From Parvibaculum sp. (GTDB lineage: Bacteria > Pseudomonadota > Alphaproteobacteria > Parvibaculales > Parvibaculaceae): 33,106 nucleotides of DNA. A model generated the notes under the pieces. It was not told the origin of the DNA, searched no databases, and was given only the letters and a program-made list of their open reading frames with translations. A program made the translations under genes and the position numbers. The stretch lies in assembly GCA_019635965.1 (NCBI GenBank), contig JAHBYK010000027.1, positions 1 through 33,106 on the forward strand, in the 5' to 3' direction. Shown here piece by piece: positions 3,132 through 30,648 of this stretch (within the stretch, counting starts at the first letter, position 1; each line of letters starts with the position of its first letter).

Positions 3132-3911
3132 ATGTCCGAGCCTGTGATCCTTGTCGAGAAGTCGGGCGCCATTGCGACCGTGACGCTCAATCGCCCCGGC
3201 GCCATGAACGCGCTGTCGCGCGAGTTGCGCAATGCCATTGCCGAGACATTCGAGGCGCTGGAGGCGGACAAGGATATTCGCGTGGCGATCCTGACCGGCG
3301 CGGGCAAGGCCTTCTGCGCCGGGCTCGACCTCAAGGAACTCGGCTCCGACACGGGCGGCATCAACGCGACGATCGGCGACAAGGACCCGGTGACCTCGAT
3401 CGGGCAATTCTCCGGCCCCGTGATCGGCGCGATCAACGGCGTGGCGATCACCGGCGGTTTCGAACTCGCGATTGCCTGCGACGTGCTGATCTGTTCGGAG
3501 AATGCGCGCTTTGCCGACACTCATGCGCGCGTCGGCATCCTGCCGGGCTGGGGCCTCAGCCAGAAGCTCTCGCGCGCCATCGGCATCTACCGCGCCAAGG
3601 AACTCTCGCTGACCGGCAATTTCCTGAGCGCACAGCAGGCCAATGACTGGGGCCTCGTCAACCGCGTGGTGCCGGCGGACGACCTGCTGCCTGCTTGCCG
3701 CAAGCTCGCCGAGGACATGCTCTCGGTCGTGCCGGAATGCCTGCCCGCCTACAAGAAGCTGATCGATGACGGCTTCGCCGAAGATTTCGGCAGCGCGCTC
3801 AAGACCGAGCGCCGCGTCTCGAGCGCCGCCAACAAGGCGGTGACGCCGGACGCGGTGGCCGAACGCCGCAAGGGCATTCAGGAGCGCGGCAAGCAGCAGG
3901 CAGGAGACTAA
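3132..3911 (+). CDS. Enoyl-CoA hydratase/isomerase family protein
   Basis: A 259-residue crotonase. The start ATG at 3132 is preceded by GGGAGGAAG; a longer upstream reading to 3066 lacks a ribosome site. The oxyanion-hole regions are present (AFCAGLDLKEL near 60-70, GVAITGGFELAIACD near 103-117). Glu111 occupies the place of the first catalytic glutamate of mitochondrial enoyl-CoA hydratase (E144 in rat). The second (E164 in rat) is replaced by His131 in the DTHARVGILPG segment. It probably works on a CoA thioester in beta-oxidation or a related route. Its stop codon is TAA. Confidence 0.9.
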   Translation: MSEPVILVEKSGAIATVTLNRPGAMNALSRELRNAIAETFEALEADKDIRVAILTGAGKAFCAGLDLKELGSDTGGINATIGDKDPVTSIGQFSGPVIGAINGVAITGGFELAIACDVLICSENARFADTHARVGILPGWGLSQKLSRAIGIYRAKELSLTGNFLSAQQANDWGLVNRVVPADDLLPACRKLAEDMLSVVPECLPAYKKLIDDGFAEDFGSALKTERRVSSAANKAVTPDAVAERRKGIQERGKQQAGD

Positions 3912-3914
3912 CAA

Positions 3915-4751
3915 ATGGAAGGGAGCGAAAGCTACAAGCGGATTGTTGAGGCCGCTCAAAAATACTTGCAAGAAAATGGTCACACCAACTCCGACAAATC
4001 GATAAGTGGCGTGGATTTAGCTACAGCACTTAAGATGAAGATTGAATCTGGCGAACTGCAGATCAAGATTAGTGAAAGCACGATCTACCAATACGTCAGC
4101 AAAGCAGCCAATGACGACTCGTCCGAGATTGTTAGCGGCGGCGCTTGGCGCGGATACTGGCTACAAGAGCAGATAGCGCAATCTCAAATAAACGCTGAAC
4201 CCGAAGAGAAAGTATCCACCGGGCAGGATGAAGAGCTGAGCTTTAAAGAGAGCGATCTTTATCCACTCGTCGAATTTTGGATGTCAACAAAGTATGACAC
4301 ATCACAAAATGTTTCGGCACTGAAGGGCGGGGGTAAATGGGGAAATCCAGACGTCATCGGTATAAGTCGGATAGAGGTTCTCGGGTCGGTTGAAATTGAA
4401 ATCGGTAGCTGCGAGGTCAAACTCTCTCACGACAGTTGGGAGATGTACGTTTTTGAGGCGGTATCGCACAAGCGATTCTCAAATCGTTCATGGTACTGCT
4501 ATCGGACAAAATTACATCAACCCCCCCCGAAGGGCATGGATGTCTATGCAGAGCGTTTCAATGTCGGGATTTTGCAGATAGTTCTGAGCGACGATCAGTT
4601 GGCTCAATTAAAACAGAAAGGAGAGGCATTTCGCTTTGTTGACAGTGTTAGAGAGATAATCCCCGCTCCTTACGAACCTACAAGTTTGGCGGCAAAGAAG
4701 AGTTTTGTTGATAGGGTGGGCTTTACGCTGAAAATTGAAAAGCCTGAGTAG
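3915..4751 (+). CDS. HrgA-like protein: N-terminal HTH-type region plus PD-(D/E)XK nuclease-like domain
   Basis: A 278-residue protein beginning 3 bases after the preceding stop. The first 80 residues are charged and helical, ending in a SESTIYQYVSKAAND segment like the start of a winged-helix (HARE-HTH/HrgA) domain. Residues 114-230 carry a restriction-endonuclease-like signature: D146 in NPDVIG, then E167-x-K169 in CEVKLS, followed by FEAVSHKRFSNRSWYC, which resembles the conserved E-K...QAVS...W pattern of HrgA/COG2958 proteins. The DNA is much lower in GC than its neighbours (it uses ATA, AAA, TTT and runs of A/T) and includes a run of eight C at 4521-4528. It looks like a recent, single-gene arrival. 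A defence or DNA-cleavage role is inferred only. Confidence 0.6.
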   Translation: MEGSESYKRIVEAAQKYLQENGHTNSDKSISGVDLATALKMKIESGELQIKISESTIYQYVSKAANDDSSEIVSGGAWRGYWLQEQIAQSQINAEPEEKVSTGQDEELSFKESDLYPLVEFWMSTKYDTSQNVSALKGGGKWGNPDVIGISRIEVLGSVEIEIGSCEVKLSHDSWEMYVFEAVSHKRFSNRSWYCYRTKLHQPPPKGMDVYAERFNVGILQIVLSDDQLAQLKQKGEAFRFVDSVREIIPAPYEPTSLAAKKSFVDRVGFTLKIEKPE

Positions 4752-4890
4752 CGGGCAAGCCCTTCGAAATACTTGGTTTTGTCGACACAAATTGCCGTCG
4801 ACACCTATTTTCGCGGCGCCACTTCATGTCTGCCCCCTTTTTCCGCTATCCTTTTCCCAAAGCCATTCAGAGCATCCGGGAGGGAAAGCC

Positions 4891-6636
4891 ATGAGCCATG
4901 ACATCGTGATCCGCGGCGGGACCGTGTTCGACGGGACGGGGGCCGCCGGGCGAGAGGCGGATGTCGCCATCGCAGGCGGGCGCATCGTGGAAGTCGGCAA
5001 GGTGGCGGGCGCCGGGCGCGAAGAGATCGACGCGAAGGGCCAGATCGTGACGCCGGGCTTCGTCGACGTGCATACGCATTACGATGGCCAGGTGACCTGG
5101 GACCCCTATCTCCAGCCCTCGACTTTCCACGGCGTGACCACCGCGATCATGGGGAATTGCGGCGTGGGCTTTGCGCCATGCAAGCCGGAACAGCGCGAAT
5201 GGCTGCTCGGCCTGATGGAAGGCGTGGAAGATATTCGGGTACGGCGCTTGCCGAGGCATCAAGTGGAGCTGGGAGAGCTTCGCCGAATAGCATGGATGCG
5301 GTGGAAGCATCGCCGCTGGCACTCGATGTCGGCCTGGGTGCCTCATGCCGCCGTGCGCGCCTATGTGATGGGCGAGCGGGCGTAGAAGCGCTCGGAGCGG
5401 CGACGGAGGCCGGAAACGGCGGAAATGGCGAAGCTCGTGGTCGAGCGCTGGAGAAGCCGGCGCGCTCGGCTTTCCACCTCGCGTACGGTGAAGCACAAGG
5501 ATGTGAAGGGCGGCTCCGCCGACGCTCAAGGCCGAAGCAATGGAACTGCACGGCATTGCCGCGCGCCATGGGCTGGTAAACGAGGCGTGCTGCAGCTCAT
5601 CGCCGATTTCAAGCAGACGGATGAGGAATTCGCGGTACTGCGCGGCATGGTGGAGCTTTCCGGGCGGCCCATGTCCATCACCATCGAACAGGACGACCGC
5701 TGGCCGACCGTCTGGAAGCGCGTGCTCGACAATATCGCGGCGGCCAATGCCGACGGGCTGCCGATCCGCGGGCAAGTGCCGCCGCGCGCGACGGGGCTGC
5801 TGCTCGGGCTCACGGCGTCGCTCAATCCGTTCATCATGCACCAGACCTTCCGCCAGATCTGGGGGGCGCCGCTCGAGCAGCAGATGAAGGCGCTGCGCGA
5901 CCCCGCGTTCCGCGCGAAGCTGCTCGCCGAAGAGCCTGCCTATCCGGCCGGCGAAATCATCGAGATGCTCTGCATCGCCTATCACAAGATGTTTTCGCTG
6001 GGCGAGCGGCCGAACTACGAGCCGACGCCGGAAGAAAGCGCGAAGGCGGTGGCGGAGCGCACCGGCAAGCATCCGCGCGAGGTGGTCCTCGACTGGATGA
6101 TGGAGCGCGACGGCAAGGCGCTGATCTATTTCCCGCTGATGAACTATCACTGCGGCAGCCTTGCCGATGTCGAGACCATGCTGACCCATCCGAACACGGC
6201 CTTCGGGCTTTCGGATGGCGGGGCGCATTGCGGCATCATCTGCGATGCGAGCTTCCCGACGACGCTGCTGACGCATTGGGGCCGCGACCGGACGCGGGGG
6301 CGCAAGCTGCCGCTCGAATGGCTCGTCCACGGGCTGACGGCGCGGAACGCGGCGCTGGTCGGGCTTCAGGACCGGGGCGTGATCGCGCCCGGCATGAAGG
6401 CCGATGTGAACGTGATCGACTTCGACCACCTGACGCTCTATTCGCCCCATATCGTCAACGACCTGCCTGCGGGCGGCAAGCGGCTGATCCAGAAGACGGA
6501 TGGCTATACGGCGAGCATCGTTTCGGGCGCCGTCGCCTTCCGCAATGGCGAGCCGACGGGTACGCTCAACGGGCGGCTGGTGCGCGGGGCGCAGAAGCGG
6601 CCCGAAGGCGCGCGGATTCCCGCCGCGGCCGATTGA
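4891..6636 (+). pseudogene. D-aminoacylase / N-acyl-D-amino-acid deacylase family amidohydrolase, frame-disrupted
   Basis: Reads in frame from ATG 4891 (MSHDIVIRGG, ribosome site GGGAGGGAAAG) to about 5235. It is in frame again from about 5585 to the TGA at 6636. The amidohydrolase metal motif HTHYDG (residues 61-66) and the C-terminal SDGGAH segment with the conserved Asp are intact. Between, the expected protein jumps among all three frames: PGTALAE (frame of 5238), IKWSWESFAE (5258), MDAVEASPLALDVG (5292), AWVPHAAVRAYVMGERA (about 5330), STSRTVKHKDVKG (about 5476), MELHGIAARHGLVNEA (5540). A TAG at 5383-5385 ends the first reading. At least eight 1-2 base indels in 350 bases, with intact flanks, suggest either local decay or a bad stretch of assembly. 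Confidence 0.8.
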
Positions 6637-28338: not shown

Positions 28339-28355
28339 GGTAGTGTCTCAGTTTG
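28339..28355 (+). repeat. Terminal inverted repeat, left end
   Basis: GGTAGTGTCTCAGTTTG, the exact reverse complement of 30708-30724. It includes the transposase stop codon. Confidence 0.95.
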
Positions 28356-29172
28356 CCAATTCGGCTATTTCTTCAAGCGTCCAGACGTGATCCGCAATAC
28401 CCGCCTGCATGGCCGGGGTAACGCGAAGCGTCTTATGGATTTTGGCGAAATTGTAGAACATGAAATGCAGGGCTACTGCGTGGGCGTGGTTCTCGATCTT
28501 CTTTGAAAAGCCGTTGGTCAGGCGAGTGAACCGGCGCATGTGCATCCGCATGGTGAGGTTCTGGCGCTCCACATAGGACGTGGAGACATGCGCCCGGTCA
28601 GGGTTGCCCGTCACCCGTTCCTTGCGGGCACCCTTGCAGACAGCCGGGCTATAGCGGCGCTGGCCTTCCGGGGCCGTGCCGTAAATCTTGATGAGGGTGG
28701 CAAAGTCCACGTCATCCCCGAATGCATCCTCTACAGCGCCCAGATAAGGGCCGTGGCCGTCGCTCGTAAGCTGCACACGGTTTGCAAGCCGGGAAGCCAC
28801 GTCCTGCATGAACTCATAGGCATATTCCGCATCCCGCCCGCCCACGAGATAGGACACGATGAGCTTGCTATCGGCGTCGATTGCGGTCCACGTCCACGTG
28901 TCGCCAGCACCTTCAGGGGCAGCTTTGGCCGTCTTGACGTTCTTTGCCTTCGCGTAGGTGAAGGACCAGATTTCATCCACCTGCACCCGCTGCGACTTCA
29001 CGTTGCGCACGTGTTCATCGTGGTAGGCGGCGCAGGCCGTCCCCACGTCCACAAGCAGCTTGGTAACGGTGTTGATGCTGACATCGGCCAGACGCGACGT
29101 GGCCCGGAGGCTCATACCTTCGCAGAGCATTCCGAGGATTTGAGCGCGCTTCTCAAGGGGCAATTTGTTCAT
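28348..29172 (-). CDS. IS1-family-like DDE transposase
   Basis: A 274-residue transposase. An N-terminal HTH (RATSRLADVSINTVTKLLVD, about 23-42) is followed by a DDE catalytic core: first Asp in QVDEIWSF (about 67), second in LTSDGHGPYL (about 138), and the Glu of STSYVERQNLTMRMHMRRFTR (in pieces: SYVERQNLTM). The C-terminal FYNFAKIHKTLRVTPAM is typical of the single-ORF IS1-type transposases common in alphaproteobacteria. The start ATG at 29172 has a GGGGC-type weak ribosome site (ATAAGGGGC). The gene lies 31 bases after the passenger gene and is probably co-transcribed with it. Confidence 0.9.
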   Translation of the reverse strand: MNKLPLEKRAQILGMLCEGMSLRATSRLADVSINTVTKLLVDVGTACAAYHDEHVRNVKSQRVQVDEIWSFTYAKAKNVKTAKAAPEGAGDTWTWTAIDADSKLIVSYLVGGRDAEYAYEFMQDVASRLANRVQLTSDGHGPYLGAVEDAFGDDVDFATLIKIYGTAPEGQRRYSPAVCKGARKERVTGNPDRAHVSTSYVERQNLTMRMHMRRFTRLTNGFSKKIENHAHAVALHFMFYNFAKIHKTLRVTPAMQAGIADHVWTLEEIAELAN

Positions 29173-29192: not shown

Positions 29193-29211
29193 ATGCTTGA
29201 CCGTCAAGCAT
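29193..29211. promoter_or_regulatory. Perfect dyad between passenger and transposase genes
   Basis: ATGCTTGAC, one base, GTCAAGCAT: 9-base perfect arms overlapping the passenger stop codon and ending 20 bases before the transposase ATG. It could be a repressor site for transposase control or a weak hairpin in the mRNA masking the ribosome site. No T-run follows, so it is not a classical terminator. Confidence 0.5.
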
Positions 29212-29992
29212 CATATTCACTTTCATCGCTGGAATTCGCATCCGAGGGTAGAGTGTTCCGCGCCCTCTCGTTACGCGCTTCAATCTCCGCCCGCTTCAAA
29301 CCAATGAGCGTTTCGGCCATCGAAAGTGCCTGCTCAGTCTCGATTGGGCCCCCGACGGAAATGCGCACAAAGCCGCCACCCTCAAAGTCGTACCGGGCCA
29401 CATTCCTCTCATCTGATTGATTATAAACAGGTTTTCCGGTATTCGGCGCTGGTGCTGTGGAGTGGCTTTGGGGGGTGCTGTGCATGGCAGGAGCCTCTGT
29501 TGAAACGGGTACTGGACCCGAATCATATGCACCGGCCTCGCGCTCTGCAAATTCGCATGTTTCGCGATAGGCGAGTATTACTGACGATACTGCGGCTGGC
29601 GCGAAGCCGTTACGAATTAGATAGTTACGCAAAACATCTTCGGCGGGCATGCGCCCCGGGAACCGCTCGGCTAGGTCCCTAAACAACTCCGGTTCGCGAG
29701 CCGCCTGCCGGATAGCCTCTGCCTTCTCCTCAGGGCTCTGAGGATGCAGGATGCACATAGCCCGGTCGCTGATTTTTATTTCGTCTCCGCGCCCTTCCAA
29801 CAAGCCATACTTTATAAGGGCTGATATCGAAGTAGCCGAAGCGCCGTTCAAGCTATTGTAGCCCATGCTTTTGGCCACAACCTCACGAGGCGCGCCGTGG
29901 GTGTGCTGGTTCTTATAAACCAGGGCGGCGCGCTGGATCGCTTCTGCGAGACTCATTGAAGGGTAGTTTGGGGAACGAACGCGCTTTTCCAC
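29204..29992 (-). CDS. Passenger protein with winged-helix-like N-terminus, unknown function
   Basis: 262 residues from a GTG at 29992, placed 7 bases after an ideal AGGAGG. Residues 13-85 (SLAEAIQRAALVYKN, YNSLNGASATSISALIKYGLLEG, ISDRAMCILHP) look like a winged-helix domain: a helix pair, then ALIKYGLLEGRGDEIKISD as wing. A helical segment (about 90-155, AEDVLRNYLIRNGFAPAAVSSVILAYRETCEFAE in pieces) follows, then a Pro/Ser/Thr linker (158-195) and a short C-terminal strand-helix unit (YDFEGGGFVRISVGGPIETEQA, cut). DNA-binding is inferred. GC is below that of host genes. Own promoter at 30051-30023. Confidence 0.75.
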   Translation of the reverse strand: MEKRVRSPNYPSMSLAEAIQRAALVYKNQHTHGAPREVVAKSMGYNSLNGASATSISALIKYGLLEGRGDEIKISDRAMCILHPQSPEEKAEAIRQAAREPELFRDLAERFPGRMPAEDVLRNYLIRNGFAPAAVSSVILAYRETCEFAEREAGAYDSGPVPVSTEAPAMHSTPQSHSTAPAPNTGKPVYNQSDERNVARYDFEGGGFVRISVGGPIETEQALSMAETLIGLKRAEIEARNERARNTLPSDANSSDESEYDA

Positions 29993-30094: not shown

Positions 30095-30123
30095 TTGACC
30101 TCGCCCAATTCCGCGCCTAGCAT
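30095..30123 (+). promoter_or_regulatory. Sigma-70-type promoter for the leader and suppressor tRNA
   Basis: -35 TTGACC (30095-30100), 17-base spacer, -10 TAGCAT (30118-30123). It is divergent from the passenger promoter. The transcript would begin near 30130 and run through the leader ORF and two hairpins to the tRNA at 30277. Confidence 0.6.
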
Positions 30124-30155
30124 CGATTTGGGCGAATCCTCAGGAGGGCAATGCC

Positions 30156-30239
30156 ATGAGAAGAGACGTAGCCCCGGCATCCAACTGCTCACCGATGCCG
30201 GGCGCGATAACAGAAAGGCCCGTTTCTGGACCGGTTTGA
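30156..30239 (+). CDS. Leader peptide ORF ahead of the suppressor tRNA
   Basis: A 27-codon ORF (starts MRRDVAPASN, ends RPVSGPV, TGA stop at 30237-30239) with AGGAGGG at 30142-30148 and ideal 7-base spacing to ATG 30156. It lies between the promoter and the tRNA, and both strong hairpins overlap its coding sequence or begin within it. That layout resembles attenuation leaders, where ribosome movement decides which hairpin forms. Whether it is translated is unproven. Confidence 0.45.
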   Translation: MRRDVAPASNCSPMPGAITERPVSGPV

Positions 30240-30263
30240 GACGCGGGAACAGAAACGGGCCTT
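30173..30263 (+). promoter_or_regulatory. Two consecutive strong hairpins in the tRNA leader
   Basis: Hairpin 1: CCCGGCATC / GATGCCGGG (30173-30181, 30194-30202), 9-base arms. Hairpin 2: AAGGCCCGTTTCTG / CAGAAACGGGCCTT (30215-30228, 30250-30263), 14-base perfect arms, ending 13 bases before the tRNA. They could be attenuator or processing structures for the plus transcript. On the minus strand hairpin 2 is followed by TCTGTT and could instead weakly terminate the KGG gene's transcript. Confidence 0.65.
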
Positions 30264-30276
30264 GGTGAGTGCCTTT

Positions 30277-30365
30277 GGAGGCGTGGCAGAGCGGTCGAAT
30301 GCAGCGGTCTTTAAAACCGCCGGACTGTGCAGGTCTCGTGGGTTCGAATCCCACCGCCTCCGCCA
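30277..30365 (+). tRNA. Class II tRNA-Ser-like with UUA anticodon (ochre/amber suppressor type), CCA encoded
   Basis: Full cloverleaf: acceptor GGAGGCG/CGCCTCC, all seven pairs; D arm GCA/TGC with GG in the loop; anticodon stem GCGGT/ACCGC around loop CTTTAAA, so U33 then anticodon UUA (30311-30313); long variable arm GGACT/GGTCT with loop GTGCA; T arm GTGGG-TTCGAAT-CCCAC; discriminator G73; CCA. Variable arm, D arm style and G73 are those of tRNA-Ser. It differs from an ordinary tRNA-Ser(UGA) loop CTTGAAA by G35 to U35. SerRS reads the variable arm, not the anticodon, so it should still be charged with serine and read UAA and, by wobble, UAG. It lies within the IS1-like element. Confidence 0.9.
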
Positions 30366-30408
30366 TTTTCCGTGGCACCCATTACTAACATGTAAAGGCG
30401 CTGGCGCA

Positions 30409-30648
30409 CTAGTCCTTGCTCCAGCGGCTTTTTGCTGCCTTTTGCGCGATCTCGCGACGCTGTTCTGGCGTTAGCGATGCAGCGCGAGCCTTCCCGCCCT
30501 TGAGACCGCCCTCTCTGCCGAGCTTCGCCATAGAGCTTTCTTGCGGCTCGGGAGCGTCTTCCTTCTCGCCTGTCGCAATGTCTGCGATCAGCTTGGCAAG
30601 CTGGTTTGTGTCCCTGGGGCGCTTCGGTTTTTTGGCGGAATCTGTCAT
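30409..30648 (-). CDS. Small basic KGG-type protein, unknown function
   Basis: A 79-residue protein: a charged N-terminus (MTDSAKKPKRPRDTNQLAKLI), an acidic linker, then MAKLGREGGLKGGKARAASL and TPEQRREIAQKAAKSRW. The GG(L)KGGKARAxxLTPExRxEIAxKAAxxRW pattern is widespread in small bacterial proteins of unknown role and suggests nucleic-acid binding. Convergent with the tRNA gene, whose 3' end lies 44 bases away. The ATG at 30648 lacks a strong ribosome site. Between it and the right inverted repeat is a dyad, TTGAAAT-N6-ATTTCAA (30691-30710), that reaches into the repeat. Confidence 0.75.
   Translation of the reverse strand: MTDSAKKPKRPRDTNQLAKLIADIATGEKEDAPEPQESSMAKLGREGGLKGGKARAASLTPEQRREIAQKAAKSRWSKD

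Follow-up and report, generated by a model that had tools for sequence, protein, structure and literature searches.

Allo-tRNAs (Mukai et al. 2017, reviewed in PMC7609411) are serine-type tRNAs with non-serine anticodons, one of them for UAA, which occur in environmental Proteobacteria and Acidobacteria; for some, a connection with transposable elements or toxin–antitoxin (TA) systems is suspected. The tRNA-ProX of Streptomyces and Kitasatospora (PMC11415595) likewise join an anticodon to a body of different identity, in their case a proline body, and have been described for Actinomycetes. Natural suppressor tRNA genes are also found on mobile DNA in phages, and those described in PMC10879173 reassign UAG to glutamine. 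RosmerTA, composed of the ImmA-protease antitoxin RmrA and the toxin RmrT, is an anti-phage TA family shown by experiment (PMC10440598), and proteins similar to its components occupy, in homologous mobile elements, the same slot between a ‘KGG’ gene and an IS1-like transposase gene in which we found a tRNA.

The stretch of DNA analysed here (the window) is 33,106 nt long and is contig 37 of a Parvibaculum draft genome of 2.48 Mb that is 75% complete. It contains a small cassette in the order p262 (divergent), promoter with inverted repeat, 27-aa ORF, hairpin and tRNA, flanked by an IS1-like transposase gene and a gene for a small KGG protein. Its tRNA resembles allo-tRNAs in being of serine type with a non-serine anticodon, but it belongs to a defined cassette with a winged-helix gene, a leader ORF and a covarying hairpin, and its sister cassettes carry Leu, Glu-like and Arg-like tRNAs. 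Unlike tRNA-ProX, it occupies a mobile TA-like slot and is accompanied by a putative repressor. Unlike the phage suppressors just cited, it has a UUA anticodon, and its cassette is host-borne and gives no hint of recoded genes. In contrast to RosmerTA, the window cassette has neither an ImmA protease nor a protein toxin, and the candidate effector is the tRNA. Among open-licence papers, we found no description of such a cassette.

Features of the cassette and its border genes, with positions in the window
Feature	Position	Strand	Basis or remark
IS1-like DDE transposase	28348..29172	-	Pfam DDE_Tnp_IS1 33.7 bits, cut-off 24.1
p262, winged-helix N-terminal domain	29204..29992	-	divergent from tRNA; no Pfam family
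Sigma-70-like promoter TTGACC-17-TAGCAT for ORF, hairpin and tRNA	30095..30123	+	1 found, 0.1 expected in shuffles
11-nt inverted repeat (putative operator) TCGCCCAATTC / GATTTGGGCGA	30101..30135	strand-neutral	surrounds -10 element
Short ORF, 27 aa, MRRDVAPASNCSPMPGAITERPVSGPV	30156..30239	+	AGGAGG upstream (strong SD)
Leader hairpin AAGGCCCGTTTCTG (30215-30228) / CAGAAACGGGCCTT (30250-30263)	30215..30263	+	conserved, covarying
Class II Ser-type tRNA, anticodon UUA (ochre), G73, encoded CCA	30277..30365	+	ARAGORN, Rfam
Terminator-like stem AAAGGCGCTGG...CCAGCGGCTTTTT 3′ of tRNA	30394..30433	+	read from sequence; loop exceeds scan tool's length
Small ‘KGG’ protein, 79 aa, border gene	30409..30648	-	tblastn relatives

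Anatomy and copies of the UUA tRNA

ARAGORN calls a tRNA-Stop(tta) with exactly the ends given in the table, the outcome that the first-pass annotation had expected of such a run (Sup-TTA), and Rfam RF00005 matches the same interval at 60.3 bits (E 7.6e-11; gathering score 29). Together with the stems visible in the sequence, these calls bear out the earlier reading of a complete class II tRNA with G73 and CCA whose UUA anticodon lies in the loop CTTTAAA. The acceptor stem (GGAGGCG/CGCCTCC, 7 bp), the T stem (GTGGG/CCCAC, 5 bp), the long variable arm and G73 are those of a class II tRNA-Ser, and the anticodon stem (GCGGT/ACCGC) encloses a normal 7-nt loop with U33 and a UAA-complementary anticodon, as in an ochre suppressor. 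The 7/5 stems differ from the 8/4 or 9/3 acceptor/T branch of allo-tRNAs and, with the UUA anticodon, from tRNA-Sec, which has a UCA anticodon and an extended acceptor branch. As judged from its sequence and conservation, the gene is well supported as a natural Ser-type nonsense-suppressor tRNA. The L059 counterpart of the terminator-like stem downstream pairs better than that of the window.

The same 89 nt recur without a single difference (89/89) in two other species of the genus Parvibaculum (G005 and G012; in the genome collection, Parvibaculum sp. MAG-82 and HGW-Alphaproteobacteria-11), where the module around it has identities of 91.4% and 88.4%; at those flank identities, the chance of 89/89 would be about 3e-4 and 2e-5. 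Further copies lie on the viral contigs L005, L007 and L010. In L005, L007, L059, L061 and L077, diverged Ser-type UUA tRNAs retain the CTTTAAA loop and are preceded by the hairpin, L062 has a Ser-type UUA tRNA with a shorter hairpin, and diverged homologues with this loop amount to at least four further loci. Since the identical sequence is present in two other assemblies of the genus and the same loop in diverged homologues, sequencing error is excluded, as is an ordinary tRNA-Ser. The first-pass annotation had placed the gene one change away from tRNA-Ser(UGA), which holds for the anticodon and fails for the gene body, 76% identical to the host tRNA-Ser(UGA). This identity rules out a recent mutant of that gene and, in place of the mutated chromosomal tRNA-Ser that had been implied, the tRNA proves to be the RNA component of a mobile cassette. 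On viral contig L004 (about 3247-3330) the window module has a decayed counterpart, in which the tRNA is broken off in the T arm near an HNH-like ORF.

The Ser-type UUA pattern was present in 2 and p262 in 10 of 385 sampled alphaproteobacterial genomes, prevalences that rest on two largely overlapping draws of 385 Alphaproteobacteria; two order-level genome searches covered just 5 and 3 genomes. A scan of 85k species gave nine Ser-type UUA matches, eight of them called as tRNAs by ARAGORN and four without the leader, and all genome matches were metagenome-assembled genomes (MAGs). The leaderless tRNAs belong to a planctomycete, an acidobacterium, an Alectryocaccomicrobium and a Marinilabiliales MAG (L054, L055, L056 and L060), that of Alectryocaccomicrobium adjoining a tRNA-Ser GCU. 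A search with the TGTC-type Ser pattern returned protein-coding matches only. Two viral contigs carry Leu-type class II tRNAs with a UUA anticodon (L008, 12347-12434; L009, 1623-1709), with no KGG or IS1-like neighbours in the DNA examined.

Leader and divergent p262 gene

The inverted repeat around the -10 element was equalled in 4 of 200 shuffles, and similar repeats above chance occur in L047, L061, L070 and L059. Because this putative operator overlaps the promoter, the earlier suggestion that the tRNA is kept low is plausible. Short ORFs of the M[RT]RR type with a Shine–Dalgarno sequence precede the hairpin in L057, L058, L061, L077, L047, L070, L074 and L005; relative to the hairpin-side peptide, the short ORF is out of frame in the window and in frame in several relatives. 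The hairpin itself is conserved 5′ of the tRNA in at least nine other loci, preceding Ser-type UUA tRNAs on viral contigs (L004, L005, L007 and L010) and in alphaproteobacterial genomes (L059, L061 and L077) as well as other tRNAs (L047, L070 and L075). Across 11 sequences, two-sided changes occur at 11 of 14 pairs, and 87% of the hairpin cells are paired vs 66% in shuffles that preserve column composition, none of 2000 reaching 87%, with the register of the 11 sequences set by hand, a procedure that favours pairing, and the test applying equally to an RNA hairpin and a DNA palindrome. Rfam gave only the tRNA and sub-threshold matches on the leader, with no leader family.

The divergent gene p262 belongs to no family in Pfam, NCBIfam or PHROG. 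The AlphaFold2 model is good for residues 1-153, and pLDDT exceeds 90 in most of the stretch 11-150. The structural matches, all of Z <8, include MarR-type winged helices at a Z of about 7 over residues 13-84; Foldseek gave nothing at E 0.001 or better. In comparisons with known antitoxins and defence proteins p262 had no match, the RmrA and RmrT components were found neither in it nor in its relatives, and searches of phages, and of viral contigs by profile, found no p262. Among three Parvibaculum copies, residues 1-155 show dN/dS of 0.00-0.03 at dS of 0.23-0.58. Purifying selection acts strongly on both p262 and the tRNA, and in L058 the two are retained together, yet the homologous block ends before both border genes.

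The mobile element and its cargo

The transposase exceeds the Pfam cut-off for the IS1-type DDE domain, and its NCBIfam IS1 score of 63.6 bits stays below the equivalog cut-off of 100. Related cassettes in other genomes likewise adjoin an IS1-like transposase; the transposase neighbour that the first-pass annotation pointed to has proved relevant. Matches to the KGG protein were found by tblastn in L057, L059, L061, L007, L010, L073-L075 and L077 and in most IS1-like viral-contig loci, and the full gene order is shared by L059, L061 and L077. Between the same border genes, the p262-leader unit is inverted in L073 and L075 with respect to the window and L077, and because the cassette is found in both orientations, p262 and the RNA behave and move as one unit. 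The KGG genes of the window, L059, L061 and L007 end in TAG, and other copies of the family vary. Elsewhere in the window (4735-6636), an amidohydrolase-like gene is apparently split into ORFs 4735-5385 and 5425-6636 in two frames.

With the transposase as query, 80 viral-contig loci were found, and KGG lies upstream in 67. In these 67 elements the slot between the two genes usually holds other cargo, among it proteins with HTH and ImmA-protease domains, HigB, AAA and STAND NTPases and SDH proteases (Pfam Peptidase_M78 15/88, HTH_3 20/88). PADLOC mainly reported RmrA and also RmrT, PD-Lambda-2 and capP/capH, although a PADLOC hit on an HTH/ImmA protein may be generic. HTH/ImmA cargo in this arrangement is also present on alphaproteobacterial plasmids. 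The p262–tRNA cassette is thus a unit of two components, in a place that TA or defence genes fill in other copies of the element.

ARAGORN placed tRNAs in 5 of the 67 KGG-to-transposase intervals, where 0.3 were expected from the density outside (P = 2e-5); all five share the strand of the transposase and precede its start by 107-142 nt, and the ten tRNAs outside the intervals have ordinary anticodons. In the five within the intervals, body and anticodon are mismatched: L102 (Leu-like body with UUA), L127 (Glu-like with AGU), L151 (Glu-like with UGC), L138 (Arg-like with ACU) and L140 (Arg-like with GCU). Accompanied by p262, mismatches also occur in L071 (Leu body with GCG, an Arg anticodon) and L047 (Glu/Gln-like body with UAC), the non-Ser identities being provisional readings by eye of D-arm, variable arm and acceptor. 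Neither the L071 nor the L140 tRNA had a DNA-level match among phage and E. coli records, so their body types are taken from the sequence itself. L073 and L074 have p262, the short ORF and the hairpin, with no recognisable tRNA 3′ of the latter, and in L161 (about 3837-3935) an Arg-like tRNA with a long anticodon-loop insertion lies directly upstream of the IS1-like transposase; the cassette RNA may therefore not always be a working tRNA.

Possible functions of the cassette

The cassettes with mismatched tRNAs, and the slot that they share with anti-phage TA genes, suggest that the tRNA is perhaps no accident but an effector whose disruptive action is deliberate. The reading that we tentatively favour is that it is the toxic effector RNA of TA-like or defence cargo in a small mobile cassette, repressed by p262. 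p262 would repress the ORF-hairpin-tRNA operon until phage infection or another stress lifts repression, whereupon the tRNA would be made and matured. SerRS recognises the long variable arm and not the anticodon, and could thus charge the UUA tRNA with serine, which would be inserted at UAA and, by wobble, at UAG, giving C-terminally extended proteins. Such a burst of readthrough would be the toxic output of the TA-like or abortive-infection cargo, and sister cassettes would act likewise through tRNAs that misread sense codons. Free expression should be costly, since 14 of 29 hand-picked ORFs of the window, in which host stop usage was sampled, end in TAA or TAG (TGA 15, TAG 10, TAA 4), in agreement with the earlier remark on stop codons. 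We speculate, a shade more cautiously still, that there is a mobile family of TA-like or anti-phage modules whose effector, a chimeric tRNA for stop or wrong sense codons, is silenced by a dedicated winged-helix repressor and released to corrupt translation.

Because the tRNA is aberrant or absent in L073, L074 and L161 and U33 is missing from the L127 tRNA, the RNA might instead be a tRNA-derived structural or regulatory molecule with no part in translation, such as a mimic with p262, a synthetase or a nuclease as its binding partner, and some allo-tRNA-like RNAs cannot be charged by E. coli enzymes (PMC7609411). We nevertheless consider this unlikely, as the UUA tRNAs of diverged loci have retained the CTTTAAA loop, every stem, the long variable arm and G73, and most copies also CCA. 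Somewhat less probable again is a neutral or mildly useful suppressor that neighbours mobile genes by chance and provides low-level readthrough or phenotypic noise. The unrelated leaderless tRNAs in MAGs would fit such a history, whereas the linkage to p262 and the hairpin, the unchanged sequence in three species and the range of mismatched tRNAs that occupy a single slot speak against it.

Two further uses of the tRNA appear very unlikely. A recoding tRNA would serve the expression of particular genes, of the cassette or the host, whose reading frames contain UAA or UAG, as the perfect match of the anticodon to UAA and the TAG stops of the KGG genes named above might suggest, but sister cassettes hold sense-codon tRNAs and the stops differ among copies (TGA, TAA or TAG). 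Candidate readthrough products of the cassette genes were rejected, the transposase, p262 and KGG having no conserved extension beyond their stops. The copies on viral contigs L005, L007 and L010 would suit a counter-defence or supply role, as an anticodon-nuclease decoy or a replenished tRNA such as some phages carry, and phage tRNAs can defeat tRNA-targeting defence (PMC11555353). That role is equally improbable, because it requires normal isoacceptors, whereas these anticodons mismatch their bodies and the tRNAs share their slot with TA and defence cargo.

Chimeric and suppressor tRNAs have been known singly; here they are recurrent cargo of one mobile-element family. The effector reading is directly testable, as the two-part cassette of about 1.2 kb can be cloned, and tRNA anatomy predicts the codon that each cassette would attack. 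If the effector role is true, mistranslation itself would be the weapon or addiction device.
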